Of a stretch of DNA of 56,540 nucleotides, positions 15,114 through 51,130 are shown in pieces. The stretch covers positions 1 to 56,540 of the forward strand of contig SVQK01000122.1 in assembly GCA_015065385.1 (NCBI GenBank), written 5' to 3'. The position numbers and the translations under genes were made by a program. The notes under the pieces are model-generated. The model saw nothing but the letters and a program-made list of their open reading frames with translations, ran no database searches and had not been told where the DNA came from. The stretch is from Oscillospiraceae bacterium. Lineage in GTDB: Bacteria; Bacillota; Clostridia; Oscillospirales; CAG-272. How positions within the stretch are numbered: the stretch's first letter is position 1; each line of letters opens with the position of its first letter.

Positions 15114-16559
15114 TTATCTCTTCCTCCACGTCGCCGGCGTGAAGGTGAGGAGCAGGGGATAGATCTCCAGCCGCCCGAGCAGCATCGCCGCGGAGAGCGC
15201 GATCTTTGAGACCGGGCCGTAATCCGCGTACCCGCCCATCGGACCCACCGCGGAAAAGCCCGGTCCGACGTTGTTGAAGCAGGCGACCACCGCCGTGATG
15301 TGCGTTTCGAGATCGAAGGGCTCGTGCCCGATGATCAGAAAGATTGCCGCCATCAGAAGCGCGTAGACGGCGAAATAGCTCGTCACACCGGCCCGCGTGC
15401 TCTCGTCCAGCGGCTTGCCCTCGAACCGGACCGTCGTCACCGAACGGGGATGCAGGAGCTTGCTCAGTTCCCGCCCCGCGCCCTTGAACAGGATGCACAC
15501 CCGGGACACCTTGAGGCCGCCCGCCGTGGATCCCGCGCATCCGCCCATGAACATCAGAAGCAGCAGGATCACCCGCGAGAGATTCGGCCAGAGGTTGAAG
15601 TCCGCGGAGGAATACCCGGTCGTCGTGATGATCGAGGCCACCTGAAAGGCCGCCTGACGGAACGCCTCGCCGAAGCTGCCGATCATCGACAGGATGTTGG
15701 CCGTGATGATCCCCGTGGCGACGACCACCGTACCGAGATAGGTCCAGAGTTCTTCCGACCGGAGCGCGGAACGGAACCGCTTCAGAAGGAGCAGGTAGTA
15801 CAGGTTGAAGTTCACGCCGAACAGGAGCATGAAGATCGTGATCACCCACTGGAGATACGGGGAGTAGGCTCCGATGCTGTCCGACCGGACACTGAATCCG
15901 CCCGTGCCCGCCGTGCCGAAGGAGTGGATCAGGGACTCGAAGAGACTCATGCCCCCGAAGAGGAGGAAGACCACCTCGGTCAGCGTCAGTCCGATATACA
16001 TCAGATAGAGGATCTTCGCCGTGTCCTTCACCCGCGGCACGATCTTGTCCACCACCGGCCCGGGCATTTCCGCGCGCATGATGTGGATCGAACGCCCCGT
16101 GGAGTCGGAGAAGATCGCCATCATCAGAACAAGCACGCCCATGCCGCCGATCCAGTGCGTGAAGCTCCGCCAGAACGCCCCGCCGTGGCTCAGCGCGGTC
16201 ACATCCCGCAGAATGGAGGCCCCGGTCGTGGTCAGGCCGCTGACGATTTCGAAGAAGGCGTCCACCGGGGAGGCGATGTCCCCCGTGAGAATGAGCGGGA
16301 CCGCCCCGACCGCCGACATGAGGATCCACGCAAGCCCCACCGTGACAAATCCTTCCCGGGCGTAGATCGTGCGGTCGCAGTGCGCGAAGATCCGGCTCAC
16401 GATCCATCCCGCGAACGTTGACGCCGCCGCCGTGCAGAAAAACACCAGCGCGACGCGCCATTCCCGGTAGCAGAGGGCGCAGAGGGCGGGGAGAGCCATG
16501 AGCGCGCCTTCGAGGGTGATGATATTGCCGAGCGTCCGGCAGATCATTTTGTGATTCAT
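15114..16559 (-). CDS. trkH: potassium uptake protein TrkH
   Basis: 481 aa multi-pass membrane protein. The four pore loops are visible: 'VSGLTTTGASIL', 'FGTAGTGGFSV', 'IITTTGYSSADF' and 'CFNNVGPGFSAVG'; the conserved pore glycines are present. 'LMFMGGCAGSTAGGLKV' is the hallmark segment before the last repeat. TrkH dimers form the K+ channel and are gated by the TrkA ring. The gene follows trkA by 10 bp and is clearly co-transcribed; ribosome site GAGGGG. A terminator follows. Confidence 0.95.
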   Translation of the reverse strand: MNHKMICRTLGNIITLEGALMALPALCALCYREWRVALVFFCTAAASTFAGWIVSRIFAHCDRTIYAREGFVTVGLAWILMSAVGAVPLILTGDIASPVDAFFEIVSGLTTTGASILRDVTALSHGGAFWRSFTHWIGGMGVLVLMMAIFSDSTGRSIHIMRAEMPGPVVDKIVPRVKDTAKILYLMYIGLTLTEVVFLLFGGMSLFESLIHSFGTAGTGGFSVRSDSIGAYSPYLQWVITIFMLLFGVNFNLYYLLLLKRFRSALRSEELWTYLGTVVVATGIITANILSMIGSFGEAFRQAAFQVASIITTTGYSSADFNLWPNLSRVILLLLMFMGGCAGSTAGGLKVSRVCILFKGAGRELSKLLHPRSVTTVRFEGKPLDESTRAGVTSYFAVYALLMAAIFLIIGHEPFDLETHITAVVACFNNVGPGFSAVGPMGGYADYGPVSKIALSAAMLLGRLEIYPLLLTFTPATWRKR

Positions 16560-16569
16560 AGGACACCCC

Positions 16570-17943
16570 TCATCTGGCGGCCAGAATGTCGGAGAGATCC
16601 GCCAGCCGATGCCCGGAGGTCAGCACGATGACCCGGTCGCCCGGCAGGATCACGTCTTCGCCGCCCGGAACGATGGTCTTCCGCCCGCGGATGATCCCCG
16701 CCATGAGGATGTTCGGCTTCATATTGACGGCAAGCTCGCGGAGCGGGGTTTCGGTGAGGCCCTCCGAGGACTGCTTCACCAGAAATTCCAGCGCTTCCGC
16801 ACGTCCGTCCATGAGCTTGTAAAGGGTTTCCACCTGAGAGTCCTGAGAGTTCTCGAGCGCGCGGGCATACTGAACCATCACGTCCGCGATGATGCGCCGC
16901 GGGGAGATGTAGGTCTCCAGCCCCAGCTTCTCCGCCATGGAGCAGAGCTCGTCCCGGTTGATCTTCGAGATGACCTTCGGGACCTTCTGGGAGGCGGCGT
17001 AAATCGAGATCAGAATGTTCTCCTCGTCCATGCCGGTGAGGGAGACGAAGGCGTCGGAATCCCGGATCCCTTCTTCCAGCAGAAGCTCCTGCTGCGCGCC
17101 GTCCCCGAGCACGACGGACACCCCGGGCAGGTTTTCCGAAAGCTCCTGCGCCACGGCCTCGTTCTTTTCGATCACCTTCACGTCCATGCCGGACGCCGAG
17201 AGCATCTTCGAGAGATAGAACGCCGTCCGCGATCCGCCGAGCAGCATGACCCGCCGCGCCTTTTTCGTGATAAGCCCCGCCTCCCGCATGAATTTGCCGA
17301 TTTCGGAGGGGGACGCCGTGATGCCGATGCGGTCTCCGCTTTTCAGCACGAAATCGCCGAGCGGGATGAAGACCTTGTCCTCCCGCTGCACGGTGCAGAT
17401 CAGCACCTTCGCCTTGAACCGGGTGCGCAGATCGCGCAGAACCAGCCCTGCGAGGGGGGAGTCCTCCCGCAGGATCAGCTCCACCATTTCGAACGTCCGC
17501 CCGGAAAAAGTCTCGATCTTGGCGGCGGAGGGCAGGCGCAGGATGTCGAAGAGTTCCCGCGCCGCGAGCAGCTCCGGATTGATCGCCATCGACAGCTCGA
17601 GCTCGCGCTTCATGAAGTCGAGGGACGCGTCGTTGTACTCCGGGTTGCGGATCCGCGCGATGGTGTGGCCCGCGCCCATCCGGCGGGCAAGGAAACAGGC
17701 GAGCATGTTCAGCTCGTCCGATCCCGTCACCGCGATGAACAGCTCCGCTTCGCGCACGCCCGCGTTTTCGAGCGTTTCGCAGTCCGCGCCGTTCCCGCGC
17801 ACGCCGATCACGTCGTAAATGTTGGTGACCTCGGCGATGACGGCGGGATCGTCGTCCAGCGCGACCAGATCGTGCCCCTCGGCTGCCAGCGCGGCGAGAA
17901 TGGTCGTCCCGATCTTGCCGCAGCCGCATACGATGATTTTCAT
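16570..17943 (-). CDS. trkA: Trk system potassium uptake regulator TrkA
   Basis: 457 aa with the duplicated RCK-N/RCK-C layout. First Rossmann motif 'VCGCGKIGTTILAALAAEG'; first C-domain around 'LVLRDLRTRFKAKVLICTV'; second Rossmann motif 'VMLLGGSRTAFYLSKML', in which the usual Gly-x-Gly is less perfect; second C-domain 'PLRELAVNMKPNILMAGI'. TrkA is a cytoplasmic NAD(H)/ATP-binding ring that gates TrkH. ATG 17943 follows CGAGGAAG. It is first gene of the trkA-trkH operon, with a consensus promoter 33-61 bp upstream. Confidence 0.95.
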   Translation of the reverse strand: MKIIVCGCGKIGTTILAALAAEGHDLVALDDDPAVIAEVTNIYDVIGVRGNGADCETLENAGVREAELFIAVTGSDELNMLACFLARRMGAGHTIARIRNPEYNDASLDFMKRELELSMAINPELLAARELFDILRLPSAAKIETFSGRTFEMVELILREDSPLAGLVLRDLRTRFKAKVLICTVQREDKVFIPLGDFVLKSGDRIGITASPSEIGKFMREAGLITKKARRVMLLGGSRTAFYLSKMLSASGMDVKVIEKNEAVAQELSENLPGVSVVLGDGAQQELLLEEGIRDSDAFVSLTGMDEENILISIYAASQKVPKVISKINRDELCSMAEKLGLETYISPRRIIADVMVQYARALENSQDSQVETLYKLMDGRAEALEFLVKQSSEGLTETPLRELAVNMKPNILMAGIIRGRKTIVPGGEDVILPGDRVIVLTSGHRLADLSDILAAR

Positions 17944-18066: not shown

Positions 18067-18111
18067 AAACGAACAGGCGGAACCCTTCTTCGGGAGTTCC
18101 GCCCGTTTTTG
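18067..18111 (-). terminator. terminator of the seven-gene envelope operon
   Basis: Minus strand: GGGCGGAACTCCC and GGGTTCCGCC fold into a long stem over a short loop, followed by a T-rich tract. It starts six bases beyond the DUF6935 stop and separates this operon from the trkA promoter. Confidence 0.75.
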
Positions 18112-18116
18112 CGCTG

Positions 18117-18701
18117 TCAGGCCCACGGATCCGCTTCGGCGGGGATCCGGATATCGGGCAGAAGGTAGTTTTCCCACAGGAACCATTCGCCCGTGCTCTC
18201 TTTCTTCCGCAGCAGGATCTGCCGGGGAGAATCCGCGCCGGAGGAAATACAGTTCAGGCGGCAGTAGCCCTCGTTCTGCCATGTGTACGGATCCTCGAAG
18301 AACGTGACGCGGTAGGGAAGGGTCGGCGCGTAGTTGTTCTGCGGGGACGTCCCGGCAAAATAGGAGCGGATGACGTACATCTTGCCCGACAGCCTGTCCC
18401 GGATGAACTGCTCCTCGAAGGGCGACATGGGACGGGGGCCGCGGAGATAGTTCACCATCGCGTGCGTCCCGGCCCGGTCCTCTTCCCACCGGTTCAGCGC
18501 GGCAACCGTCAGCGCGGCCGTGCCGTAGGGGAGCTTCAGATCGGACAGCGGGCAGGCCTTCAGCTCGTCGAGGGAGGCCGGGAGCGCGTCGAAGGCAATC
18601 GTCACGGCGGGATACCCCTGCGCGGTCTTGCCGACGGTCAGGGAAACGCCGTTCTGTGCCTTTCCCCCGGCTTCTTTCAAAAGATCGTCGAAAATGCCCA
18701 T
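18117..18701 (-). CDS. DUF6935-like protein
   Basis: 194 aa, no signal peptide or membrane segment. Recognisable family features are 'LPYGTAALTVAALNRWEEDR', 'LRGPRPMSPFEEQFIRDRL', 'YVIRSYFAGTSPQNNYAP', and a C-terminal 'ADSPRQILLRKK...GEWFLWE' block. Related clostridial proteins are listed as DUF6935 with no function, often beside SPFH, TPM and zinc-ribbon membrane proteins as here. It is last in the seven-gene operon, 19 bp after the TPM gene, with GAGGAGG ribosome site. I infer a cytoplasmic partner of the envelope complex, from context only. Confidence 0.7.
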   Translation of the reverse strand: MGIFDDLLKEAGGKAQNGVSLTVGKTAQGYPAVTIAFDALPASLDELKACPLSDLKLPYGTAALTVAALNRWEEDRAGTHAMVNYLRGPRPMSPFEEQFIRDRLSGKMYVIRSYFAGTSPQNNYAPTLPYRVTFFEDPYTWQNEGYCRLNCISSGADSPRQILLRKKESTGEWFLWENYLLPDIRIPAEADPWA

Positions 18702-18720
18702 GCCTCGCCCTCCTCAGCCG

Positions 18721-19548
18721 TCAGTATTTCCCGTGGCTTCCGCTGTGCGAAACGCCGCCGGAGCTCATGTGGGTCGTTGTGCCGCCGCCTCCGGAACGCT
18801 CGGTTTCGCGCGGGGTGCGGGAGACGTGCCGTCCGATGAAGAAATCGTTCGCCTGCGTGATCTGCACGGTGTCGTCCCGGGCGTAGGAGCGCGCGCTCGG
18901 CTGGCTGCGCACGGATTTCAGCTGGCTCTTCATGCTCGATACGGGAACCAGACCGCCGAGCAGACCGGCCACGACGGATCCGAGAACCCTCATGAGCGAG
19001 AAGGGCTTGACGGGTTCCTTGTCGCTGTCGTAGTCGTAGGGGAAGCCGTTGTCCTTTTCATACTGGAGCAGGGCGGCGCAGGAATTGGCGAACTCCTTGT
19101 AAGCCCCGCTGTAGTTGTCCTCCCTGAGATAGGGCAGGAAGTTGTTGACGAGATACTCCTCGCGCCCGTAGTCGGTGAAGGTGCGGTTGCACGATCCCGC
19201 CGCGGTCACGGCCCAGTCCCGGTCTCCCGTCACCTGAATGAGCAGGATGCCGCCGGTTTTGTCCCCGGTCCCGTAGCCGTTCTGGTCGTAGAAATCGTCC
19301 GCGAAGGCCTCGATGTCGTAGTACCCGTACATGGTCTCGAAGGTCATGACGCCGACGTCCACGCCGTACTGGGAGGAAATGCTTTTCAGAATCGTTTCGA
19401 CCGCCGCCGCGTCCGCGCTCGAAAGAAGACCGGCTTCGTCGTACAGAAGGGGCCGCCCCTCGACGTGGGGAACCTCCGCGGAGACGGAGCAGACGAGCAG
19501 GACGGACACCGCGATCAGGGAAAGAAGCGCAAGAATGCCTTTTTTCAT
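18721..19548 (-). CDS. TPM domain protein (YdjH-like)
   Basis: 275 aa. A signal peptide (residues 1-24, ending 'SVSA') precedes a TPM fold: 'LYDEAGLLSSADAAAVETIL', 'YGVDVGVMTFETMYG', 'KTGGILLIQVTGDRDWAVTA' and 'NFLPYLREDNYSGAYKEF'. A hydrophobic helix, 'LMRVLGSVVAGLLGGLVPV' (residues about 184-202), is followed by a basic/Ser segment and a Gly/Ser/His-rich tail ending 'SGGVSHSGSHGKY'. TPM proteins are membrane-tethered domains facing the outside; the Bacillus subtilis counterpart YdjH sits beside YdjG and YdjI. The same trio is present here. RBS AGGAGGG; 13 bp after the zinc-ribbon gene. Confidence 0.85.
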   Translation of the reverse strand: MKKGILALLSLIAVSVLLVCSVSAEVPHVEGRPLLYDEAGLLSSADAAAVETILKSISSQYGVDVGVMTFETMYGYYDIEAFADDFYDQNGYGTGDKTGGILLIQVTGDRDWAVTAAGSCNRTFTDYGREEYLVNNFLPYLREDNYSGAYKEFANSCAALLQYEKDNGFPYDYDSDKEPVKPFSLMRVLGSVVAGLLGGLVPVSSMKSQLKSVRSQPSARSYARDDTVQITQANDFFIGRHVSRTPRETERSGGGGTTTHMSSGGVSHSGSHGKY

Positions 19549-19561
19549 GTTCTGCCCTCCT

Positions 19562-20710
19562 TTACATCGCCTGGAACATGGTGACGAGCAGGTAGACCAC
19601 CGCCGCGAAGATGCCGCCGTAGAGCAGGAGATACTTCCAGTACGCTCCCTTGTCCACCGGCAGGTCGCCGACGAATTTGCCCGTCTGCGCGTTCATGGCG
19701 AAGGTGTACTTGCCGCCCTTCCAGCTGGTGTTGAGCAGCCACACGGGATAGAGGGCGTAGCGGACCCGCGAATCCCGCAGCTGGATCGAGGAGCTGTCGA
19801 GGCTCACGGTCTCGTAGCCGTGCACCTGTTCGGCGAAGGTCATTTCCGCGGTCTTGCGGATGCGTTCGTTGGCGCGGTCCACGCTCTGCTCCGCCGTCAC
19901 GTCGTATTTATCGGCCAGATATCCCGCCAGATACGCCGTCTGGAAGGGGACTGCCTCGGACACGTCGAAGGGCTCGATGGATTCCATCAGGGTGTCGTCC
20001 ATCTTGGAGGAGCCGTCCGCCGGAACCGCCTCGAAGCTCATGGAGCCTCCGCGGTCCACCAGATATTCCTCGGTCTCCACATAGTTGTAGTTCCGGTCCG
20101 ACCATGCCCGGGTGCGGGTGGCGCGGAACCGGAGCTTCACGTCCGCAGAGGAGTCGAAGAGCCAGTAGGGAACGTAGATCCCCTTGATCTCGTCGAGGTG
20201 CTGCTCGTCGCTGAACAGCTTCGGAGCCATCTTCTTGCTCTTGGCGTGCATCCGGAGCGCGTCCTTCGCCGCCTTTTTGTCCAGCTTGAAGGGGATCACC
20301 AGATCCGGCTTCAGGGCTCCGGTGAAGTTGCCCATCACGACGACGGGATTCCCGCAGAACGGGCAGGAGGTGGCCGCCATGGACTCGTCGCCGACGATTT
20401 CGCCGCCGCAGGAGTTGCAGACGTACACCTTCATTCCAGCGGTCTCGCCGCTGTCCCATTCCGAACCCGCGTCGGTGTTCCAGTTGAGCTGATCCTCCGG
20501 AAGAGGCACGGCGTCCTCGGGGTTCATCGGCTCCCCGTCAGGCCCGGTCTGGACCGCTCCCGCCGCCGTGTTCAGCTGTTCGTCCTTTCCCGCCAGCTCC
20601 TCCATGGAGAAGACGCTGTCGCAGTAGGGACACTTCATTTTCTGTATCGCCGGATCGAATTCAAGCGCGCCGCCGCAGGCAGGGCATTTGTATTCCATTA
20701 ATTCCGCCAT
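19562..20710 (-). CDS. TFIIB-type zinc-ribbon membrane protein (YdjG-like)
   Basis: 382 aa. N-terminal zinc ribbon 'YKCPACGGALEF' plus 'MKCPYCDSVF'. A second ribbon in the middle reads 'YVCNSCGGEIVG' and 'SCPFCGNPVVV'. A long region with 'LKPDLVIPFKLDKKAA' and 'IYVPYWLFDSSADV' follows, and a C-terminal membrane helix 'LLLYGGIFAAVVYLLVTMF'. This is the architecture of YdjG of B. subtilis, encoded with the TPM and SPFH proteins and associated with membrane-stress responses. Here a lipoprotein gene is inserted between it and the SPFH gene. AAGGAGG lies 13 nt before the chosen ATG, rather far; Met5 (20698) would be even further. Confidence 0.88.
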   Translation of the reverse strand: MAELMEYKCPACGGALEFDPAIQKMKCPYCDSVFSMEELAGKDEQLNTAAGAVQTGPDGEPMNPEDAVPLPEDQLNWNTDAGSEWDSGETAGMKVYVCNSCGGEIVGDESMAATSCPFCGNPVVVMGNFTGALKPDLVIPFKLDKKAAKDALRMHAKSKKMAPKLFSDEQHLDEIKGIYVPYWLFDSSADVKLRFRATRTRAWSDRNYNYVETEEYLVDRGGSMSFEAVPADGSSKMDDTLMESIEPFDVSEAVPFQTAYLAGYLADKYDVTAEQSVDRANERIRKTAEMTFAEQVHGYETVSLDSSSIQLRDSRVRYALYPVWLLNTSWKGGKYTFAMNAQTGKFVGDLPVDKGAYWKYLLLYGGIFAAVVYLLVTMFQAM

Positions 20711-20733
20711 AGTCGGATCATTACCTCCTTGTA

Positions 20734-21639
20734 TCAGGAATCAAGCGTCCGCGCGATTTCCTTGAGGACGCTCAAAAGGGGTTCGTAGTGAGGGTCGCCC
20801 CAGCCGCTGTCGCTGAACGACTGCTTTTCCCAGTATGCCGAGAGATGGTAGGTCGTCGCGTCGAGGGGCATGAGTTCTTCTTCGTCCTCCGCCGGGGATT
20901 CCCAGCGGGCCGAGGACGCAGCCAGGGCGGAGTAGAGACCGCTTTCCCGGGCTGCCGCGCGGATCTCATCCGTCTGGGCGTCGGAAAGAGGTCGGTCGTC
21001 CAGTTCGACGGTATGCTCCTCCCAATCCCCGTCCGCTTCCGTCACGAAGATGAAATACGCGGATAAAAACGCTGCGCCGTCCTCTTCCCGGAAATCGAAG
21101 GAGAAGGATCCTTCGATCCACGAGGCGGACGCGGAGACGGAAAGGTATTTCAGCTCTCCGGCCTCCTCCTCGGGAATCCCGTACGCGCGGGCAGCTTTCG
21201 AAAGGAAGGAGCGGATCTCTTCCTCGCCCTCGGGTTTGACGGAGGTCATTTTCTCCGCGCCATTCTCCCATGTGAACGAAGCCTTCCGGCTCGTCGCGTC
21301 AAGGACTCCTATGTTGTGAGCTTTCCTGCCGGAGAGAACGGACTTTTCAAATCCGGTGTCCTTCACGGCCTGCCGGAAATCCCCGAGGACCGAGGCCGGG
21401 ACTTTCACATGGTCGAGCTCGAGACGGCCCTCGCCGTTGTCCTCGTCGCAGGAGAGGAAAACGCCCTCCTCCGTCTCCGCGAGGGAGAAGGAATAGCTGT
21501 TTCCGTAGTCCATGCGCGAGACCGAAATCCACGCGGAGACGATTTCCCCGGACGGACGCTTCCCGCACCCGAACAGCGCGAGCATCGATCCCGCGGCAAG
21601 GATGCCTGTCAGTACAGAGATCATGAGACGGCCTTTCAT
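20734..21639 (-). CDS. lipoprotein of unknown function
   Basis: 301 aa. A lipoprotein signal ends in 'ALFGC' (lipidated C25). The mature part contains two similar halves: 'WISVSRMDYGNSYSFSLAET' with a later 'VSASASWIEGSFSFDFREED', each followed by a 'LELD'-type acidic strand (positions about 73 and 216). This suggests an internal duplication of a roughly 130-residue beta-rich unit. I do not recognise a family. It lies between the SPFH and zinc-ribbon genes; RBS AAGGGGG. It presumably sits on the outer face of the membrane next to the TPM protein. Confidence 0.7.
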   Translation of the reverse strand: MKGRLMISVLTGILAAGSMLALFGCGKRPSGEIVSAWISVSRMDYGNSYSFSLAETEEGVFLSCDEDNGEGRLELDHVKVPASVLGDFRQAVKDTGFEKSVLSGRKAHNIGVLDATSRKASFTWENGAEKMTSVKPEGEEEIRSFLSKAARAYGIPEEEAGELKYLSVSASASWIEGSFSFDFREEDGAAFLSAYFIFVTEADGDWEEHTVELDDRPLSDAQTDEIRAAARESGLYSALAASSARWESPAEDEEELMPLDATTYHLSAYWEKQSFSDSGWGDPHYEPLLSVLKEIARTLDS

Positions 21640-21731
21640 ACCGGTGCACCCCCTTTATCTGCAAAACGGAAAAGCGGGATCCGGGGAGGAAACCCGAAAA
21701 GGCCCTCCCCGATCCGCGTCTTTCAGGGGAT

Positions 21732-23153
21732 TTACTGAACGTCTTCGTCGCCGAAGGGATCGCCGCACTCAGGGCAGAACTTCGGCGGGTTGGCGGGATC
21801 CTCGGGTTCCCAGCCGCACTTGTCGCACTTGTACAGCTTCGCGCCCGCGGGCTTCTTGGTGCCGCAGTCGGAGCAGAACTTGCCCTTGTTGGTCGTGCCG
21901 CAGTTCGGGCAGGTCCAGCCGTCGGGCGTCTCGTCGGGCTTCTTGGTGCCGCACTCGGGGCAGAACTTGCCGGTCGCGGTCTTGCCGCAGGTCGGGCAGG
22001 TCCAGGAACCGGCAGCCGGCTTCGGCTCGGGCTTCTTGGTGCCGCATTCGGGGCAGAACTTGCCGGTGGCCGCCTTGCCGCAGGTCGGGCAGGTCCATGT
22101 GTCAGCCGCGGGAGCCGCCGGGGCCGCCTGCTGCTGCATCTGCTGCTGCTGGAGTCCCGCCGCGAAGAGGTTGGCCGCATTGGCCGCGCCGCCCTGCTGA
22201 TTGGCCATGCCCATCGCCATGAAGCCGTTGACCGCGCCGTTCGGGTTGGCTGCCGCGGTGGCTGCGTTGGCGGCGGAGGTGGAGGTGGTGAAGGCGGACT
22301 GAGCGAAGGCGTCGCCGCGCATCATCGCGGTTTCTTCCCAGGTGGTGATCTTCTTTCTCTGATCCTCGGGGATGGAGGGAACGCCCATGGAGACGGAGAA
22401 CACGGAGATGCCGCGCTTGCCCCATTCGTTCGCCAGCTCTTCGTTGAGCGCGTTCTTGAGCTCCTTGGTGTGCGCCGGGATCTGGTCGTAGGATACGCCG
22501 GCGGCGGAGAGATGCGCGAGAGCGGGCTGGAGGGCGTCGATCAGCTCGGCCTTCAGAGTGGGGTCGATCTGGGAGCGCTCGTAGCTCACGGCGACGTTGG
22601 CTGCTACCTCGGTGTAGAAGAGAAGCGGGTTGGTCAGCTTGTAGGAGTACATGCCGTTGCAGCGCAGGTCAACGGACATCTTGTAGCCCAGCTGCTCGTT
22701 GATGACGACCTTGAAGGGAACAGGGTTGGCGGTGCCGAACTTGTTGTTCGGGATTTCCTTGGTGTTGAAGTAGTAGACGCGCTGGTCCTTGGCCGTGTCG
22801 CCGCCGAAGGTGAAGCGCTTGCCGATGGTCTTGAAGGTGTCGAGGATGGAGGAGCCGAGGGAGCCGGAGAAGATGGAGGGCTCGGTGGAGGTGTCGTACT
22901 TGAATTCGCCCGGTTCGGCGCAGACTTCCACGATCTTGCCCTGCTCCACGATGATCATGCACTGGCCGTCCGCCACCGCGATGATGGAACCGTTGGAGAT
23001 GATGTTGTCGTTGCCGCGGTTGTTGCCCTTGGTCCTCTTCTGGCCTTTCACCATCAGGGTGTCGGCGTCAAGAGCGTCGCAGTAGAAGTATTCTTTCCAC
23101 TGATCGGCGAGGGTGTTGCCTACGGAGCCCAGTGCTGCTGCGATAAGTCCCAT
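21732..23153 (-). CDS. SPFH-domain protein with four C-terminal zinc ribbons (YdjI-like)
   Basis: 473 aa. Residues 1-270 form an SPFH (virion-core/YdjI) domain: 'DQWKEYFYCDALDADTLMV', 'SIIAVADGQCMIIVEQGKI', 'DQRVYYFNTKEIPNNKFGT', 'LRCNGMYSYKLTNPLLFY'. An Ala/Asn/Gln-rich linker with 'LQQQQMQQQ' follows, then four zinc ribbons: 'WTCPTCGKAATGKFCPECG', a near copy, 'WTCPNCGTTNKGKFCSDCG', and 'YKCDKCGW' with 'FCPECGD'. B. subtilis YdjI is the SPFH member of the ydjFGHI membrane-stress group and lacks so many ribbons. No membrane helix, so it probably binds the membrane peripherally as an oligomer. RBS AAAGGAG. No PspA homologue is encoded in the window. Confidence 0.88.
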   Translation of the reverse strand: MGLIAAALGSVGNTLADQWKEYFYCDALDADTLMVKGQKRTKGNNRGNDNIISNGSIIAVADGQCMIIVEQGKIVEVCAEPGEFKYDTSTEPSIFSGSLGSSILDTFKTIGKRFTFGGDTAKDQRVYYFNTKEIPNNKFGTANPVPFKVVINEQLGYKMSVDLRCNGMYSYKLTNPLLFYTEVAANVAVSYERSQIDPTLKAELIDALQPALAHLSAAGVSYDQIPAHTKELKNALNEELANEWGKRGISVFSVSMGVPSIPEDQRKKITTWEETAMMRGDAFAQSAFTTSTSAANAATAAANPNGAVNGFMAMGMANQQGGAANAANLFAAGLQQQQMQQQAAPAAPAADTWTCPTCGKAATGKFCPECGTKKPEPKPAAGSWTCPTCGKTATGKFCPECGTKKPDETPDGWTCPNCGTTNKGKFCSDCGTKKPAGAKLYKCDKCGWEPEDPANPPKFCPECGDPFGDEDVQ

Positions 23154-23282
23154 GAGTAAATCTCCTTTTGAATATAAAATTGTTTTTTGGATCTATGGTT
23201 CAGCCGGGGGACGGGATCCCGCCGGCGTGAAGCGCGAATGTGCAAATGGATAAAGAGATCAGCGTGAAGATCCGTCTTCGGA

Positions 23283-26042
23283 TCAGTTCCAGCCGCCGTC
23301 GTCTCCGGAGAGGGGCCAGGTGAAGATCGGCGCGCCGTCGTTTCCCGCGGAGGACTGGGAGTCGTCGGGCCATCCGTCCGGATCCGTGCCGTTCTCCCAG
23401 CCGCTGTCGTTTCCGTCCGGTTCCCATGGCGAGGGCTCCGGTTCGTCCGCCGACTGCGGTGCCTCCGGTCCGTCCGTTGACTGCGGTGCCTCCGGTTCGG
23501 CGGGTTCCTGTACAGTCGGCTCCGGTTCAGCCGGTTCCACGGCCGGACGGGTCGCGGGATCCCGGTTGTCCGTCCACAGCTCCGTGTCGCCATCCCCGGC
23601 GGGAACCTGAATCCAGCCGGTGACCTCGTCCGAGAGGCGCGCGTCCCGGAAGAACCAGTCCCATCCGTCGGGCATTTCGAGCCGGAAAGCCGCGCTCTGC
23701 GGGATGCGCACGCGGATGAACGCCACCTCCGTCCCTTCGTTCAGAACGTGGAACGCGGCGATCCGGACGCTGTCCCACGGCGCGAGGAAGTCCTCCCCGG
23801 CAAAGACGCCGTAGTAGAAGCGGGTTTCCTCTTCGACGGCCCCTTCGTCCACGGTCTGACGGGACCGGAGGGCGAGCGTGTCACGGTCGGCGGTGATGCG
23901 GATATACCGCTCTTCCCCGAGAGGAACATAGAACATCCGGTCGCCCGTTCCGTTTCCGCCGTTCACGGGAACCAGCTCTTTCAGGGCTCCGCTTTTCAGC
24001 GCGTTCTCGAGGAGGGAGGTGACGGCGTCGTCGTGCGCATAGGCAGCGTCGGGATTCTTGACCACGTCCCCGTACGAGGCGACGTAGGAGGTCCATCCGT
24101 CCTCCGCTTTCATCCGGACCGCGCCGATTTCGGCGGATTCTCCGGAGCCGTTTTTGACGTAGCGGATCCACGAGCTCCCGTCCTTCCGGAAGGAGACGGT
24201 CCCGTCCCCGCCCTCCATTGTGACGGAGCCGTACCGCGCGACAAGGGAGGATACCGCGTTCGCCCCGATCAGGCCTGCCGCGCTGAGTTCGGAGACGTCC
24301 GCCGGTGTGACCTTCGCCGCGCCCGTGACCCAGATCTCATGGGACTGACCGTCCGCAGCCGCCTGGAAAGAACCGGGCGCGGGCTGGGTGCGGTCCGCGT
24401 CGTACCAGTATTCCGCGTCGGAGAGGAAGGAGAGCCGGAACGCCCACCCCGCCGGGATAGCAAAGGAGAGATCCTCCGCCGGGGCGTTGACCCATTCGAC
24501 GTGATAGACGACGGTCCGCTCTTCGCCGAGGGAGGAGAAAATGGCCTCGTCCGTCTTCGCGCCTCCGCGGGTGACGGTCAGGGAGGAGAGCGCGTGGGCG
24601 TTCGTTCCCGTGGTGTCCGTCTCGATGGAGCGGAGGAGCAGGCTGTCCTTCTCCACAATGATCCGGGACATGACGGGAACGCCGTTCTGCATGGACCGCA
24701 CGGTGAAGAGCACCGAGGATCCGGAGACGGTCACGCTCCCCACGGATCCGGCCGGGATGAAGGAGGAGATCAGGTTTTCCGTCGAGACCGTGTTGTCGGC
24801 GGATTTGAACGCGTACCCGTTTTTGTCGGGATAGCGCACGCCGTCCCTGAGATACCGCCGCTCGGAGGGGCTTCCGGACAGCGTGTCGGTGTAGACGACG
24901 ATCTGCCGCCCGTCGCTCTCGTAGGCGACCGCTTCTTCGGTCTTCGCCTTTCCGTTCTCCTCGGTCTTGAAGACGTAGCCCGCCGATCCGTGGACGGGAA
25001 GCAGGGCGGAGAGGGCGTTTGCCTTCCGCACGTCTTCCAGCGTGAAGGTCAGCTCCTCGGGCGAGAGGGAATAGTAGTCCGTCAGAGCCGCCGTGATCCG
25101 CTCCGCTCCGAACCGGTCCGCCCCGAGGGTGTAGGTCACCTGCCGGGATACGGTCCCGTCCTCGTTGTAGGAGGTGAAGGATTTGATTTCGTAGGACCGG
25201 GCGTCGAGGGTGAAGTCCGCGCGCCGCGTCCCGTCTTTGCTTTCGCAGCGGACGAGGATCCCGTCCGTGGTTTCCGAAGGTTCTGCCTCGGCCTCTTCCT
25301 GTCCCTCTTCTCCGGGCTCCGCTTCCTGCGACGGTTCCGGTTTCGGGCGTTCGATCCGGCTCAGCGTCCCGTCCAGATACGGGGCGAAGGGATTGTCAAA
25401 CGCGGTGAAGGCTCTTGCGTCTTCGCTCAGGGAGACGGGGACGGCGGGATTGTCGTAGTCGGCGGCGGAGGCGTACAGCGTCACCCCGTCCGCGGTCCGA
25501 ACGGTCCCGAAACATCCCGACGGCGTTCCTCTCATATCGCAGAACTCCACGGAAGCCCGTCCGCCGGGGGTGTCGATGAGGTAGTGATAGCCCTTCCGCG
25601 GTCCGTTCACCGTCGCCTCCTCGGTCAGCACGCAGCCGTACCGGGCGACGAGCAGGGCCGTTTCGTTGGCGGCGGCGGCGTTTTTCAGCGTCAGGGCGCG
25701 GGAGGAGGCTTGTCCGGAAGTCCCGGAAGAACCGGAGGAGAAGGGATCGGGTTCAGCCTCCGTCTCCTCCCCTTCGTCCGGCTTGCCGATGTTCGCCTCC
25801 GGGTCTTCGCCGTCCGGGGGAGTTTCTGTCTCCGCTTCGGTTTCCGCGTCTCCGGGATGGACGATCGGCGGCGGGGGGCCTTCCACGAGTCCGGTTTCGC
25901 CGGTCTGGGCAGGGGGAGCGTATTCCTCCCGGAACTGCCCGGCGAACTCCGTGATGTCGCTGAGGCTGCACCCCGCGGACGCCGTACCGGCAGCAAGAAG
26001 CAGCGCGGCAAGGAGAACGGATATGCGTGATGGTTGTTTCAT
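23283..26042 (-). CDS. large lipoprotein with repeated C-terminal-type domain
   Basis: 919 aa. Lipoprotein signal 'TASAGCS' (C25), then a low-complexity Glu/Pro-rich spacer (about 45-105). The rest contains at least two units that each end in a similar block: 'WAFRLSFLSDAEYWYDADRT' leading to 'EIWVTGAA', and 'FRLEMPDGWDWFFRDARLSD' leading to 'ELWTDNRD'. The same block closes the neighbouring 506-aa lipoprotein. The C-terminus (about 830-919) is Pro-, Glu- and Asp-rich. I recognise no catalytic motif and no family. It lies 61 bp downstream of the 506-aa lipoprotein gene and 129 bp upstream of the SPFH gene, within the same operon. RBS is weak. Confidence 0.75.
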   Translation of the reverse strand: MKQPSRISVLLAALLLAAGTASAGCSLSDITEFAGQFREEYAPPAQTGETGLVEGPPPPIVHPGDAETEAETETPPDGEDPEANIGKPDEGEETEAEPDPFSSGSSGTSGQASSRALTLKNAAAANETALLVARYGCVLTEEATVNGPRKGYHYLIDTPGGRASVEFCDMRGTPSGCFGTVRTADGVTLYASAADYDNPAVPVSLSEDARAFTAFDNPFAPYLDGTLSRIERPKPEPSQEAEPGEEGQEEAEAEPSETTDGILVRCESKDGTRRADFTLDARSYEIKSFTSYNEDGTVSRQVTYTLGADRFGAERITAALTDYYSLSPEELTFTLEDVRKANALSALLPVHGSAGYVFKTEENGKAKTEEAVAYESDGRQIVVYTDTLSGSPSERRYLRDGVRYPDKNGYAFKSADNTVSTENLISSFIPAGSVGSVTVSGSSVLFTVRSMQNGVPVMSRIIVEKDSLLLRSIETDTTGTNAHALSSLTVTRGGAKTDEAIFSSLGEERTVVYHVEWVNAPAEDLSFAIPAGWAFRLSFLSDAEYWYDADRTQPAPGSFQAAADGQSHEIWVTGAAKVTPADVSELSAAGLIGANAVSSLVARYGSVTMEGGDGTVSFRKDGSSWIRYVKNGSGESAEIGAVRMKAEDGWTSYVASYGDVVKNPDAAYAHDDAVTSLLENALKSGALKELVPVNGGNGTGDRMFYVPLGEERYIRITADRDTLALRSRQTVDEGAVEEETRFYYGVFAGEDFLAPWDSVRIAAFHVLNEGTEVAFIRVRIPQSAAFRLEMPDGWDWFFRDARLSDEVTGWIQVPAGDGDTELWTDNRDPATRPAVEPAEPEPTVQEPAEPEAPQSTDGPEAPQSADEPEPSPWEPDGNDSGWENGTDPDGWPDDSQSSAGNDGAPIFTWPLSGDDGGWN

Positions 26043-26103
26043 GGTCGATCGGCCTGTATCTTCGTCAGTTTCAATATCGGATGCGCGGGCTGTTTTTCGG
26101 GGA

Positions 26104-27624
26104 TCATCCCGCGGCGTTGGTGGCCCAGAGCGTCAGGTCTTCTTCTCCGGGTTCTATGGGGTTGTCCACGGCGCCTGTAAACCCTTCGTTGGCGTAGAGA
26201 AAGAGATCTCCCCACGCGATCAGAGTGAGCTTCCATTCCTTCGGCACATGGAGGTAATAGTCGATCGGCGCGGGATTGAGTCCGCCCTCGTACCATGTGC
26301 CCTTGACGCGGATGATCCGCTGGTTCGAGACGTCCTTCCGGAGGGGGGCCATGAAGTCCTCGGCCTTGTCCCGTCCGTATTCCGCGGTGCGGGAGTAGGT
26401 CAGCGTCCCGTCGGCGTTATACCGCTCGAAGGAGACCACCGCCAGCGAATCGGCGAGGACGGTGTAGACGAGAGTTTCGCCCTCGAGGATCTCGGGAGCG
26501 GTCCGGAAGGTCACGGTGTCCCCGCCAGTCTCGAGGATTTCGGCGGGCGCGTTGTAAAAGTCGTAGAAGAACTCAATGTCGCCGGGATAGGTCCCCGCGG
26601 GCGTCGAATCTCCCAGAGCGAAGGAGGCGGAAACCCCTTCGCCGTCCGCCGAGGCATAGAGGATGTTCTCCCCGTCCCAGAAGGAGTAGTTCGTATAGGT
26701 GTACGGCGTCATGGCATCGTCGTAGGCATGCCCTTCGGTGACGGACAGAATGCCGGGATCGTCCACCAGATAGTACGAATCCGACGTGACGTTTCCCGGG
26801 GTCTCGTAGTACGACGTCTCCCTGACGTGGAATCCGCCGTAGGTCATAACGAGATTCCCCACCAGATTGGCCTCGGTGAGGTGCTCCCACGTCAGCTGTC
26901 TTTGTAGGTCTTCGGTCCCGCCCTCCGGTTCGTCCCATGAGAAATCGGTGAGGAACAGATAGACAAGGGGCGGGGCGGCGTTTTCACCGGCGTCCGGAGG
27001 ATTCTCGAACGCGGCGTACAAAAGGCACCGGCGGACCCCTTCGTCGAGGTGATCCTCCACGGAGACGATCCATGTGCCGTCCTCCTGTTCAGCGGAGAGC
27101 GCGCGCCATACGCCGAGCGTATCGTCGAGCATTTTTGCGTAGTCGTCGAACCGGAATCCCGGCACGCCGTCTCTTGTCTCGGCTTCGGCGCCTTCCAGCC
27201 CGAGCCAGTCGGGCCGCGGGAGGGGATCTTCGCCCGGACGGAGCGCGGAGCAGATCGCCTCGGCTGCCGTTTCCGGGATCCACGCGGCCTCGTCCGGTCC
27301 GGTCTGACGGGCGGTCATGGCGGCGTAGTACCCGACCGCGCTCCAGAGTCCGCCCGGATCGTCCAGATGGTCCCTCCCCCATCCCACGAGCGTCATGGCG
27401 AGCGCTTCGCTGAGCGTCTTCTCGTCGGGAAGGAACGCAGGGGCTTCCGGCGCGGGTTCGGGTTCGGGATCGGCGGGGACAGGATCGGGAACGGCTGTCG
27501 TCTCCGTCTGATCCGCGCCGCCCTGCGTCCCGTCGATCTTCTCCAGCCTGATACAGCCGGAGGACGAGAGGAGAAGGACGGAAAGGAGCAGGGGAAGAAC
27601 GCGGCTGCGCAGGACTTTCTTCAT
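26104..27624 (-). CDS. lipoprotein, first gene of the envelope operon
   Basis: 506 aa. Signal 'LLLSSSGC' (C24), short Thr/Pro/Glu-rich spacer, then an unrecognised domain with 'MTLVGWGRDHLDDPGGLWSA', 'DEAAWIPETAAEAICSALRP', and a middle beta region. The C-terminal block 'DYYLHVPKEWKLTLIAWGD' to 'LTLWATNAAG' recurs twice in the downstream 919-aa lipoprotein. ATG 27624 is preferred over 27648, since a GAGG-type site precedes it and the lipoprotein signal then has normal length. A consensus promoter lies 160-190 bp upstream. Function unknown; I infer an exposed partner of the SPFH/TPM complex. Confidence 0.75.
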   Translation of the reverse strand: MKKVLRSRVLPLLLSVLLLSSSGCIRLEKIDGTQGGADQTETTAVPDPVPADPEPEPAPEAPAFLPDEKTLSEALAMTLVGWGRDHLDDPGGLWSAVGYYAAMTARQTGPDEAAWIPETAAEAICSALRPGEDPLPRPDWLGLEGAEAETRDGVPGFRFDDYAKMLDDTLGVWRALSAEQEDGTWIVSVEDHLDEGVRRCLLYAAFENPPDAGENAAPPLVYLFLTDFSWDEPEGGTEDLQRQLTWEHLTEANLVGNLVMTYGGFHVRETSYYETPGNVTSDSYYLVDDPGILSVTEGHAYDDAMTPYTYTNYSFWDGENILYASADGEGVSASFALGDSTPAGTYPGDIEFFYDFYNAPAEILETGGDTVTFRTAPEILEGETLVYTVLADSLAVVSFERYNADGTLTYSRTAEYGRDKAEDFMAPLRKDVSNQRIIRVKGTWYEGGLNPAPIDYYLHVPKEWKLTLIAWGDLFLYANEGFTGAVDNPIEPGEEDLTLWATNAAG

Positions 27625-27782
27625 GCTGATACCTCGTATATCGGTCATCCGGAACGAAAACCGCTCCGGGCACGGATTTCACGCCGCCGTCACCCCCCGC
27701 CGCGCCTCCTGTTCGGAACGCTGAAACCGGGGATTCCGGGCGATTTTCCGCAGAAATGCCGGGAAGATCTGTCTTCAATCGT

Positions 27783-27811
27783 ATTATAGCAAATCAAGGG
27801 GCGTCTGTCAA
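27783..27811 (-). promoter_or_regulatory. sigma-A promoter of the seven-gene envelope operon
   Basis: Minus strand: TTGACA (27806-27811), 17 bp, TATAAT (27783-27788). No other strong promoter is visible before the terminator at 18067-18111, so one transcript of about 9.7 kb is likely. Confidence 0.75.
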
Positions 27812-28018
27812 CCGAGAGAAGGAAAAATGAGAAGGCGGACAGGGCGCGGAGCCTTTTGAGAAGCCGGATCCCGCCCTGCGATTAAATTCCGGTGAGAACC
27901 GTTCTCATCCCGCCTCATACGAATCTCATTCTAAAAGGGGGGACGCGGCTTTCTTTCGGAGAAAGCCTGGCAAAGAACTTTATGGGGAGTAGGTAATGGA
28001 TCGGCTATACCAATCAAG
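27812..28018. other. intergenic segment with two inverted repeats
   Basis: TGAGAAC-C-GTTCTCA (about 27892-27906) is a perfect 15-bp palindrome. GGCTTTCT-TTCGG-AGAAAGCC (27947-27967) is a perfect hairpin. From about 27997 the GGATCGGCTATA arm pairs with TATAGCCATCC inside the adjacent repeat. No gene is seen. Confidence 0.45.
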
Positions 28019-28159
28019 TGAAGCTGAGGCTTCGACACACCAATATAGCCATCCAACCTTATCAGAGTTATCGCACGCGAGCTCATCGCACGGCGATTCG
28101 CACCCTACATGGAGCGATCAAAACCCATATAGTTTAGCTTTTTTGGCTGAGAACAGTAT
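28019..28159 (+). repeat. dispersed 141-bp repeat, copy A
   Basis: Matches 56400-56540 in inverted orientation with 8 differences in 141 positions (about 94%). Starts at a GAAGC-TGA-GGCTTC hairpin, contains two ATCGCACG direct repeats, and ends in GGCTGAGAACAGTAT. The last 22 bp also match 14984-15005. The end abuts, and supplies the first base of, the complementary stop codon of the DUF4091 gene (28159-28161). Confidence 0.85.
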
Positions 28160-32263: not shown

Positions 32264-32337
32264 GGCCCGGTAGTTCAGTTGGTTAGAACGCTAGCCTGTC
32301 ACGCTAGAGGTCACGAGTTCGAGTCTCGTCCGGGTCG
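32264..32337 (+). tRNA. tRNA-Asp (GTC)
   Basis: 74 nt. The acceptor GGCCCGG pairs with CCGGGTC; D-arm AGTTCAGTTGG; anticodon loop CTGTCAC gives GTC; T-loop GTTCGAGTC. Discriminator G. The 3' CCA is not encoded. Confidence 0.95.
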
Positions 32338-32366
32338 TGACGCGGATCTTCTGATTCCCGGCAAAT

Positions 32367-32439
32367 GCCTCTGTAGCTCAGTTGGTAGAGCAGGGGATTG
32401 AAAATTCCCGTGTCGTTGGTTCAATTCCGACCGGAGGCA
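32367..32439 (+). tRNA. tRNA-Phe (GAA)
   Basis: 73 nt. The acceptor GCCTCTG pairs with CGGAGGC; anticodon loop ATTGAAAAT gives GAA; T-loop GGTTCAATTCC; discriminator A. CCA is not encoded. Confidence 0.95.
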
Positions 32440-32442
32440 TAT

Positions 32443-32515
32443 GCGGATTTAGCTCATTTGGTAGAGCGCAACCTTGCCAAGGTTGAGGTGGCGGGTCCGA
32501 GCCCCGTAATCCGCT
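32443..32515 (+). tRNA. tRNA-Gly (GCC)
   Basis: 73 nt. The acceptor GCGGATT pairs with AATCCGC; anticodon loop CTTGCCAAG gives GCC; T-arm CGGGTCCGAGCCCCG; discriminator T. CCA is not encoded. Confidence 0.95.
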
Positions 32516-47118: not shown

Positions 47119-48084
47119 ATGGGCTTTCGGTTCCTCGGCACGGGCAGCGCGGCTCCCGCCAGAATTCTGACCAACGACGATCTCTCCGCGATGGTGGAGA
47201 CCTCGGACGAGTGGATCACCACCCGGGTCGGCGTGCGGGAGAGACGGATCGCCGTCGAAGAAACCACCGCGTCTCTTGCGGCCGAAGCAGCCCGGCGGGC
47301 TCTCGAACAGAGCGGCGTGTCCCCGGAAGAGCTCGATCTCATCCTCTGCGCCACCATCACAGCGGACGACGTCTGTCCCACGGTGGCGGGCGCGGTTCAG
47401 GAGGCTCTCGGCGCGTCCTGCCCGGCTTTCGATATCAGCTCCGCCTGCTCCGGATTCCTCTTCGCCCTTGAGACGGCGGCGGGATTCTTCGCCCGCGGGA
47501 CCGTGAAAAAAGCCCTCGTCATCGGCGCGGAGCGGATCTCGAAGATCCTCGACTGGAGCGACCGGTCCACCTGCGTCATCTTCGGCGACGGAGCGGGCGC
47601 GGCGGTCCTCGGGGCTTCGGAGGAGGATTCCTACCTCGTGAGCGAGCTGCACACCGCGGGCGGATCCGACGTGATCCACATTCCGGCATATCAGGGCCAG
47701 TCCCCGTTCCGGAAGGTTCCCGAGGGCGAGCGTCCCCCGGTGATCTTCATGGCCGGTCAGGAGACCTTCAAGTTCGCCGTCAACGCGATGGTGAACCACA
47801 TCCGGTCCATGGCGGAGAAGATCGGGAAGACGCCGGAGGAGCTGGATTTCGTCGTCCCCCATCAGGCGAATACCCGCATCATCGATTTCGCCGCGAAGAA
47901 GCTGAACCTTCCCCCGGAGAAGTTCATCGTGACCATCCAGAACTACGGCAACACCGCGGCGGCGAGCGTTCCCACAGCCCTTGACGAAGCGAACCGGTCC
48001 GGCAGGATCAAGCGGGGCGACCTCGTGGCAATGGTGGCCTTCGGCGGAGGACTGTCCTCGGCGGGCGCCATCGTGCGGTGGTAG
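47119..48084 (+). CDS. fabH: beta-ketoacyl-ACP synthase III
   Basis: 321 aa. Catalytic C110 in 'SSACSGFLFAL', H248 in 'VPHQAN' and N278 in 'YGNTAAAS' form the FabH triad. It condenses acetyl-CoA (or a branched starter) with malonyl-ACP, starting each fatty-acid cycle. First gene of the FAS II operon behind a consensus promoter; RBS GAGGAGG. Confidence 0.97.
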   Translation: MGFRFLGTGSAAPARILTNDDLSAMVETSDEWITTRVGVRERRIAVEETTASLAAEAARRALEQSGVSPEELDLILCATITADDVCPTVAGAVQEALGASCPAFDISSACSGFLFALETAAGFFARGTVKKALVIGAERISKILDWSDRSTCVIFGDGAGAAVLGASEEDSYLVSELHTAGGSDVIHIPAYQGQSPFRKVPEGERPPVIFMAGQETFKFAVNAMVNHIRSMAEKIGKTPEELDFVVPHQANTRIIDFAAKKLNLPPEKFIVTIQNYGNTAAASVPTALDEANRSGRIKRGDLVAMVAFGGGLSSAGAIVRW

Positions 48085-48129
48085 GATTTTTTATCAGCCA
48101 ATCATTTTTTCACATAAAGGAGAACCAAC

Positions 48130-48354
48130 ATGACCACATTCGAGAAAATCAGAGACATCATTGCCGACAAGTCCGGCGAGGACGGTGAGAACATCACCCC
48201 CGAGACCGAATACACCGACCTCGGCATCGACTCCCTCACCATCGTCGAGATCCTCATGGACATCGAGGACGAGTTCGGCGTGACCGTGGAAGCGGCCAAC
48301 GCGGGCAAGACCGTCGGCGACCTCGTTGCGAAGGTCGAGGAGGAAGCGAAGTGA
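48130..48354 (+). CDS. acpP: acyl carrier protein
   Basis: 74 aa. The phosphopantetheine site is S35 in 'DLGIDSLTIVE'. Acidic helices ('ILMDIEDEFGVTV') are typical. It carries all intermediates of the pathway. AAAGGAG ribosome site. The stop is overlapped by the fabK GTG (GTGA). Confidence 0.97.
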   Translation: MTTFEKIRDIIADKSGEDGENITPETEYTDLGIDSLTIVEILMDIEDEFGVTVEAANAGKTVGDLVAKVEEEAK

Positions 48355-49307: not shown

Positions 49308-49343
49308 CCGCGCGCATACCACGACAGAAAAAGGATTTTCACT

Positions 49344-50279: not shown

Positions 50280-50342
50280 TCCCGGACGGCGGAGGGTCAA
50301 GATTCATACAGAGACAGACGACTGAGGCGGAAAGGGTTGACT

Positions 50343-51101: not shown

Positions 51102-51130
51102 CGCAAATACCATAAGGAGAACCTGACAGA

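Follow-up and report, generated by a model that had tools for sequence, protein, structure and literature searches.

What might a YdjG-, YdjH- and YdjI-like gene set do where PspA is absent and lipoprotein genes are added to it? This question is raised by a seven-gene operon at positions 18,117-27,811 of contig SVQK01000122.1 (assembly GCA_015065385.1, Oscillospiraceae bacterium, CAG-272), of which 56,540 nucleotides (nt), hereafter the window, were analysed. The operon encodes, successively, two lipoproteins (LP1 and LP2), an SPFH protein, a third lipoprotein (LP3), a YdjG-like protein, a TPM-domain protein and a DUF6935 protein. The strongest new facts are (i) a lipoprotein module whose family matches this form of the operon, and (ii) a YdjGHI-like core that is mostly free of PspA in this bacterial order.

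The SPFH-YdjG-TPM core and PspA

The identities that the first-pass annotation had given to the four conserved proteins are borne out for the SPFH, TPM and DUF6935 proteins by Pfam score, and for the YdjG-like protein by architecture and homology. The YdjI-like SPFH protein (21732-23153) matches Band_7_1 (2.5e-16) together with a double zinc ribbon, and it is the single Band_7_1 match in the genome. Its eight CxxC motifs correspond to four C-terminal zinc ribbons; it is devoid of a membrane anchor, the SPFH half showing no more than one hydrophobic window of borderline strength (1.61). Band_7_1 also matches B. subtilis within a control set of 14 genomes, where the matching protein is presumably YdjI. 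The YdjG-like protein (19562-20710) is built of two N-terminal zinc ribbons (CxxC at 9, 27, 98 and 116), a central domain and one C-terminal transmembrane segment (residues 358-382). All its Pfam matches are below cutoff, the best ones being to zinc ribbons, and its identification is based on this architecture and on homology (26-27% identity) to the YdjG-like protein that adjoins PspA in two genomes of the same taxonomic order (G053 and G076; genomes are numbered with G, their contigs with C, public loci with L). The YdjH-like protein (18721-19548) possesses a signal sequence, a TPM domain (TPM_phosphatase, 1e-23), a later hydrophobic segment (residues 183-201), the second of two, and a low-complexity tail rich in glycine, serine and histidine. 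The DUF6935 protein (18117-18701; Pfam, 3.7e-50) contains no hydrophobic segment and is predicted to be cytosolic.

The spread of these genes was followed in 79 related genomes, of which 48 form the window's family and 25 its genus, the own genome included. At E ≤ 0.001, the SPFH protein has a match in 61 relatives (some of them to zinc ribbons alone), YdjG in 58, TPM in 56 and DUF6935 in 36. SPFH matches that start at the first residue and cover at least about 100 residues, a count excluding very short N-terminal fragments (e.g. G038, G044, G062 and G067), are present in 53 of the 79 genomes, 39 of them with a linked YdjG gene. A linked triad on one strand was found in 33 genomes, 29 with the order SPFH-YdjG-TPM and four with the B. 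subtilis order YdjG-TPM-SPFH. The linkage counts took these SPFH matches, the main YdjG matches and, on the contigs concerned, the TPM matches; they omit short and secondary segments, matches to zinc ribbons alone and TPM matches on contigs carrying neither SPFH nor YdjG, and contig ends lower both the triad and the linkage counts. Among the best 80 of at least 536 public stretches encoding an SPFH relative, 61 extend at least 3.5 kb beyond the SPFH gene, and YdjG lies downstream in 44 of these, YdjG together with TPM in 40.

The absence of PspA, claimed at the outset for the operon, holds there and extends to the whole genome (94% complete), in which no PspA/IM30 (PF04012) was found, nine of the 14 control genomes being positive. 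A PspA match occurs in eight of the 79 relatives at E ≤ 0.001 (six above the family cutoff) and in none of the 48 family members, so that a PspA loss peculiar to this window was rejected. The profile search of the best 80 public SPFH loci revealed no PspA either; this profile was built from five sequences and recovers a sixth one (L153) outside the building set. Two of the 33 triad genomes (G054 and G078) have a PspA gene, unlinked to the triad, while in G053 and G076 PspA stands beside the YdjG-like gene, followed by an SPFH-like gene. Judged by PspA, the locus is not classed as a Psp system. A distinct machine had been suggested, in part from the lack of PspA and the presence of DUF6935; these two features do not support it as put forward, because PspA-free triads are usual in the relatives and DUF6935 recurs (16 of the best 80 public loci). 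Given the triad and public-locus counts, neither the core nor its lack of PspA is unusual among these Clostridia: SPFH-YdjG-TPM, which amounts to B. subtilis ydjGHI in rearranged form, is frequently found as a triad free of PspA and is not special to the window.

Variants of the triad were also noted. Tandem double-TPM proteins occur in it at seven public loci (L076, L085, L092, L097, L102, L116 and L123), and three TPM matches lie within one frame in G069. A DUF4428-type zinc-ribbon protein is encoded between SPFH and YdjG, as tested against Pfam in L076 and L085 and judged by resemblance in other loci. Lipoprotein-like open reading frames (ORFs) take the same place in L084, L086 and L096, one in L096 with BspA-type leucine-rich repeats; in these lineages, surface proteins may have joined the triad independently.

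DUF6935 is a recurrent yet optional partner of the core. In the 16 public loci mentioned, it is encoded on the same strand within 4.3 kb of SPFH, and in nine of them it lies at, or at most 327 nt ahead of, the SPFH gene. Its predicted structure, computed with 17 homologues from public loci, is good (pLDDT 92) but matches neither a structure in the Protein Data Bank (PDB) nor a viral protein at E ≤ 0.001. The term DUF6935 was found in no paper in the literature searched; the loci described here provide the family with a gene context. Unlike the cytosolic forms, the DUF6935 protein of L140 (11709-12470) carries a lipoprotein-like signal sequence, and a single frame of some 1,040 residues comprises four DUF6935 copies in G054 (C12: 1004-3589) and in G078 (C52: 10685-13282). 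A more distant DUF6935 group (about 39-52% identical), found in congeners and relatives (L041, L042, L046, L047, L049, L062, L064 and L065), belongs to larger clusters that also encode lipoproteins, DUF4428 proteins and small zinc-ribbon proteins; several of these clusters adjoin the genes of a divergent solute-binding protein and a membrane-anchored LuxR-type regulator.

The lipoproteins and their repeated module

The lineage-specific addition to this core, and what is new, is the module of the upstream lipoproteins. LP1 (26104-27648) consists of an N-terminal domain (residues 75-234) and one C-terminal module (residues 252-512), and LP2 (23283-26042) of three modules in tandem (residues 117-320, incomplete, 333-575 and 589-826), followed by a low-complexity tail. 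A lipobox after a hydrophobic stretch was recognised, by a simple pattern and hydropathy rather than a trained predictor, in LP1 (SSGC), LP2 (SAGC) and LP3 (LFGC; 20734-21639); those of LP1 and LP2 are weak in this genome, and the LP1 lipobox of congeners is more canonical (ALSGC in G011, ALAGC in G024). LP1, LP2 and LP3 have no Pfam or NCBIfam match above cutoff, and the modules have no informative match in Pfam, against which 15 were scanned, or among PDB sequences, so membership of LP1 and LP2 in a named family was rejected.

An iterated profile search with the module of about 250 residues shared by LP1 and LP2 collected 15 ORFs from nine congeners, each with one to four copies, some of the ORFs being cut by contig ends. 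A profile of 15 modules matches ten of the 79 relatives, namely the nine congeners and, weakly, G049 (2.8e-4). The same nine of the 25 genus genomes (G000, G002, G005, G010, G011, G016, G018, G019 and G024) carry the lipoprotein form of the operon, in the constant order LP-LP-SPFH-(LP3)-YdjG-TPM-DUF6935, whole or on partial contigs. The conserved neighbourhood on which the first reading of the locus depended is thus present. LP1 to DUF6935 is unbroken on one contig in G000, G016 and G011, and in G024 with LP3 missing; the G005 contig begins inside LP2 and has no LP3, and the operons of G018, G019, G010 and G002 are each split over two contigs. The number of lipoprotein genes ahead of SPFH is one in G019 and G010, two in G000, G016, G011, G024 and G002, and at least two in G018 (G005 being cut), with the following modules per gene: 1+4 in G016, 3+1 in G011, 1+3 in G024, 2+1 in G002, three in G019 and two in G010.

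Of the seven genomes with contigs spanning the position of LP3, five have the gene (G000, G016, G011, G019 and G018); it is missing from G024 and G005, where gaps of 170 and 120 nt are left, and is therefore dispensable. Distant relatives of LP3 stand beside DUF6935 in L044 and L051. An equivalence of LP3 to the gene that separates SPFH from YdjG elsewhere among Clostridia was rejected, as that gene mostly encodes a DUF4428-type zinc-ribbon protein. The module and LP3 were each detected in one of the best 80 public loci, in both cases that of the congener L068 (contig G018:C214). Beyond the operon, the module follows SLH (S-layer) domains in one protein each of G024 and G018, which marks it as a surface module, and in G016 it is fused to a DHHW/AlgX-like protein that also has an Ig-like domain; each of these contexts belongs to the wall or surface.

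The module was modelled on LP2 around residues 328-580, using eight alignment rows, all from the window and L068; the best model reaches a mean pLDDT of 70 and a pTM of 0.57, and the five models range from 45 to 70. In the predicted layout, a pair of helices is followed by a series of long strands; after a poorly modelled stretch come further strands, one helix and, last, a small beta domain (about 70 residues). The 18 PDB fold matches at E ≤ 0.001 are without exception LolA, RseB, MucB, LprG or the sponge protein EPD-BCP1 (best E 6e-5, probability 1.00), the last of which we take from its name to be an ependymin relative. This moderate-confidence model indicates that the module likely has a LolA/RseB/MucB/LprG-like fold. 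The list of matches is consistent in itself, because LolA, LolB, RseB, LprG and EPDR1 are assigned in PMC6363788 to one superfamily binding hydrophobic ligands. MucB is described in PMC7400510 as lipid-responsive and as having a similar two-part layout, with a half-barrel at the N-terminus (about 190 residues) and a beta domain of smaller size.

Transcription signals, divergence and neighbouring genes

The seven genes form a co-directional run on the minus strand (27648-18117), with all seven ORFs present in the ORF listing and intergenic gaps of 61, 129, 92, 23, 13 and 19 nt from LP1 to DUF6935. A sigma-70-type promoter, TTGACA-17-TATAAT with TG, matching 12 of 12 consensus positions, precedes LP1 (27783-27811, minus strand), and the hairpin scan placed an intrinsic terminator with 14 pairs and a T tail (18072-18107, minus strand) behind the last gene. 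The seven-gene unit between promoter and terminator proposed earlier was confirmed in its ORFs, order, spacing and both signals, and judging from these signals the genes would be co-transcribed as one unit. The 15-kb stretch contains four promoter-like sites, compared to 2.2 ± 1.6 in shuffles, just two of which score 12/12; the terminator stem is the longest among 20 hairpin sites (11.8 ± 4.1 in shuffles). A fixed-consensus scan, performed without a shuffle control, revealed a promoter-like site before LP1 in four of the seven congener contigs covering this place (12/12 in G000, G016 and G024, 11/12 in G010), and no such site in the lipoprotein-SPFH gap of any of the nine congeners; a weak 9/12 site lies inside LP3 in G000.

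The genes of the unit diverge unequally. Compared to G018, G005 and G011, the SPFH, YdjG and DUF6935 proteins are 78-94% identical (dN/dS 0.07-0.22), whereas identity is 29-70% for TPM, LP1, LP2 and LP3 in the comparisons made (dN/dS 0.21-0.66); these rates are rough, the lipoprotein alignments having many gap columns and high dS, and the two dN/dS ranges touch at the TPM protein of G011. For TrkA and TrkH, encoded next to the operon, identity is 88% and 80% (G005 only; dN/dS 0.13 and 0.19). In these three comparisons the identity gradient tracks the predicted membrane side, cytosolic proteins being conserved and exposed ones diverged; it is less clean in the more distant G016 (SPFH 79%, YdjG 74%, DUF6935 59%, TPM 42%). 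As all dN/dS values are below 1, there is no sign of positive selection over whole genes. The predicted locations of the products agree with the earlier suggestion that the unit spans cytoplasm, membrane and surface. Of nine genes measured, SPFH shows the most pronounced codon bias (Nc 27.9, with 43.2 for LP1 and 43 for LP3), which suggests a protein made in large amounts.

Pfam scanning of the flanking genes identified a GH123 gene upstream and trkA and trkH downstream. The trkA-trkH unit (15114-17943) directly follows the operon; TrkA also follows in G024, and TrkA-TrkH in G005. Its inclusion in the operon was ruled out by the intervening terminator and by its own 12/12 promoter (18004-17976). 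Between the GH123 gene and the operon promoter, about 350 bases (27812-28158) contain no listed ORF of at least 80 amino acids and no Rfam match. Elsewhere in the window, three consecutive tRNA genes were found at 32264-32515, and fatty-acid synthesis genes (FabH-like, FabF-like) at 47119-52360, about 20 kb from the operon.

Possible roles and comparison with known systems

YdjGHI has been studied as the membrane dock of PspA, yet among these relatives it is retained mostly in genomes without PspA; it must therefore have a job of its own, one that can be approached without PspA. The explanation preferred here, though held tentatively and only as somewhat likely, sees in the unit a YdjGHI-type membrane scaffold that works without PspA and to which RseB/LolA-like lipoproteins were added, forming an outward side that probably samples lipids. 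Within the cell, an abundant SPFH protein would act as an oligomeric scaffold, held at the membrane by the tail-anchored YdjG-like protein and the YdjH-like protein with its TPM domain outward, and DUF6935 would be a cytosolic partner. Outside, LP1 and LP2, together with LP3 in most covered congeners, would be lipid-anchored, and their repeated modules, each predicted to be a LolA/RseB-like half-barrel plus a small beta domain, may bind lipids or amphiphilic molecules. The modules could then report the state of the membrane or wall through TPM and YdjG to the SPFH scaffold, which would alter membrane order or wall synthesis locally. Ligand binding, contact between lipoproteins and scaffold, the membrane effect and the abundance of SPFH are elements that we infer. 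If the predicted fold is true, the lipoproteins would be the missing outer face, a candidate for what TPM and YdjG listen to, and the seven-gene unit could serve a gut-type bacterium for sensing the outer side of its membrane. The module is in any case an expandable lipoprotein family, matching nothing in the libraries searched.

Several observations weigh against this scaffold with a sensing outer face. On the side of the fold, two of the five models have a pLDDT of 45-46 and the best a mean of 70, the TM-scores by query length of the 18 best matches are low (0.26-0.39), and neither the Pfam scan of 15 modules nor the search of PDB sequences gave a sequence match to a LolA/RseB/LppX family. 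On the side of expression, the fixed-consensus scan found no promoter before LP1 in three of the seven covering contigs (G011, G019 and G002), G016 has a weak 9/12 promoter-like site close to where SPFH and LP3 meet, and the strongly unequal codon bias within the unit means that the products may be made in very unequal amounts. On the side of distribution, eight other congeners have a linked triad with no module, and the module is missing from 79 of the best 80 public loci. The gravest doubt comes from the success of the module on its own in other parts of the genome: four solitary two-module lipoproteins are encoded on contigs C70, C1, C57 and C117, none with an SPFH gene, and the module is therefore independent of the scaffold; its place here may reflect shared control only.

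The most serious alternative, less probable in our view yet still to be reckoned with, is that lineage-specific lipoproteins were captured upstream of an ancestral SPFH-YdjG-TPM-DUF6935 unit and are merely co-expressed with it, sharing regulation and no machine. It gains from the solitary module lipoproteins, more of which occur in congeners. The four of this genome begin alike by eye after the lipid cysteine (approximately CxKIxxID), and the solitary copies show local synteny among close congeners (e.g. G011, G019, G010 and G002; G000:C117 and G024:C121; G000:C57 and G018:C161). One lipoprotein-like neighbour is common to G000:C1 and G024:C108, and the neighbourhood comparison found no partner gene common to all of them. 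The variable numbers of modules and of upstream lipoprotein genes among congeners, and the triads lacking lipoproteins in the eight congeners and at most loci elsewhere, favour it as well. Against it, all nine module-bearing congeners have the module directly before SPFH, and LP3-like lipoproteins adjoin DUF6935 in L044 and L051 too.

A bolder form of the scaffold reading, which we consider unlikely, is a complete outside-to-inside membrane-lipid sensor, in which arrays of RseB/LolA-like lipoproteins, their module number reshuffled between species, would be joined to the PspA-free SPFH scaffold as a structural counterpart of the RseB/MucB stress switch that acts via membrane organisation and not via an anti-sigma factor.

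Two further explanations appear quite improbable. The lipoproteins might be nutrient- or glycan-binding surface proteins of a rumen or gut polysaccharide degrader, near the SPFH unit by chance, as the GH123 glycosidase gene just upstream, the rumen or gut source named in many relatives' records, and the joining of the module to SLH domains and the DHHW/AlgX-like protein would allow; however, L031, L034 and L037 have no gene family in common upstream of LP1, no carbohydrate-binding family match was found, and lipid binding is what the predicted fold suggests. A role in membrane damage or defence, in which the lipoproteins are decoys or receptor-like targets of phages or other attackers, would agree with the fast divergence of the exposed parts and the changing repeat number, but the defence-library search of the seven operon proteins gave it no support, the single match being that of the SPFH zinc ribbons to Cas12f, the flanking genes scanned with Pfam are GH123, trkA and trkH, and dN/dS of the exposed genes stays below 1.

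Beyond work on Psp and YdjI, no paper on this gene set was found in the literature searched, as judged by title and the start of the abstract. The closest known system is pspA-ydjGHI of B. subtilis, compared here through published descriptions. According to PMC8581546, PMC11237479 and PMC9239133, both share an SPFH protein with a C-terminal zinc finger and no membrane anchor, a two-zinc-ribbon protein with a transmembrane segment, and a TPM protein with a low-complexity tail, encoded in one gene set. In contrast to B. subtilis, no PspA is found here in operon, genome or family, the order is SPFH-YdjG-TPM instead of YdjG-TPM-SPFH, and a terminal DUF6935 and three lipoproteins are added. PMC8581546 reports that YdjI is predicted to be soluble, requires YdjG and YdjH for its membrane placement and forms foci even without PspA, and that its loss rigidifies the membrane; under alkaline stress, loss of YdjG or YdjH causes a defect in cell shape and wall synthesis, whereas loss of YdjI or PspA does not. 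A chaperone-like role of TPM and Band-7 partners is proposed in PMC11237479, where surface lipoproteins of related PspA operons are also suggested as a link from outside sensing to membrane dynamics; by analogy, the operon fits this lipoprotein-sensing idea with PspA removed.

The PspA-free SPFH-(DUF4428)-YdjG-TPM-(DUF6935) clusters of other Clostridia, such as Anaeromassilibacillus sp. An172 (L078), Faecalicatena contorta (L085), Oliverpabstia intestinalis (L102) and Faecalibacterium prausnitzii (L079), have the same core order at a locus likewise lacking PspA. They differ in the absence of the LP1/LP2 module, and several encode a DUF4428-type protein where the operon has LP3. With the RseB/MucB sensors and the LolA/LprG carriers, as described in PMC7400510 and PMC6363788, the module shares an extracytoplasmic location and a predicted half-barrel followed by a smaller beta domain. 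In contrast to these proteins, it has no detectable sequence similarity to them, no anti-sigma family was identified by Pfam among the seven operon proteins, and its copies are arranged in tandem within lipoproteins of a Clostridia-type bacterium.

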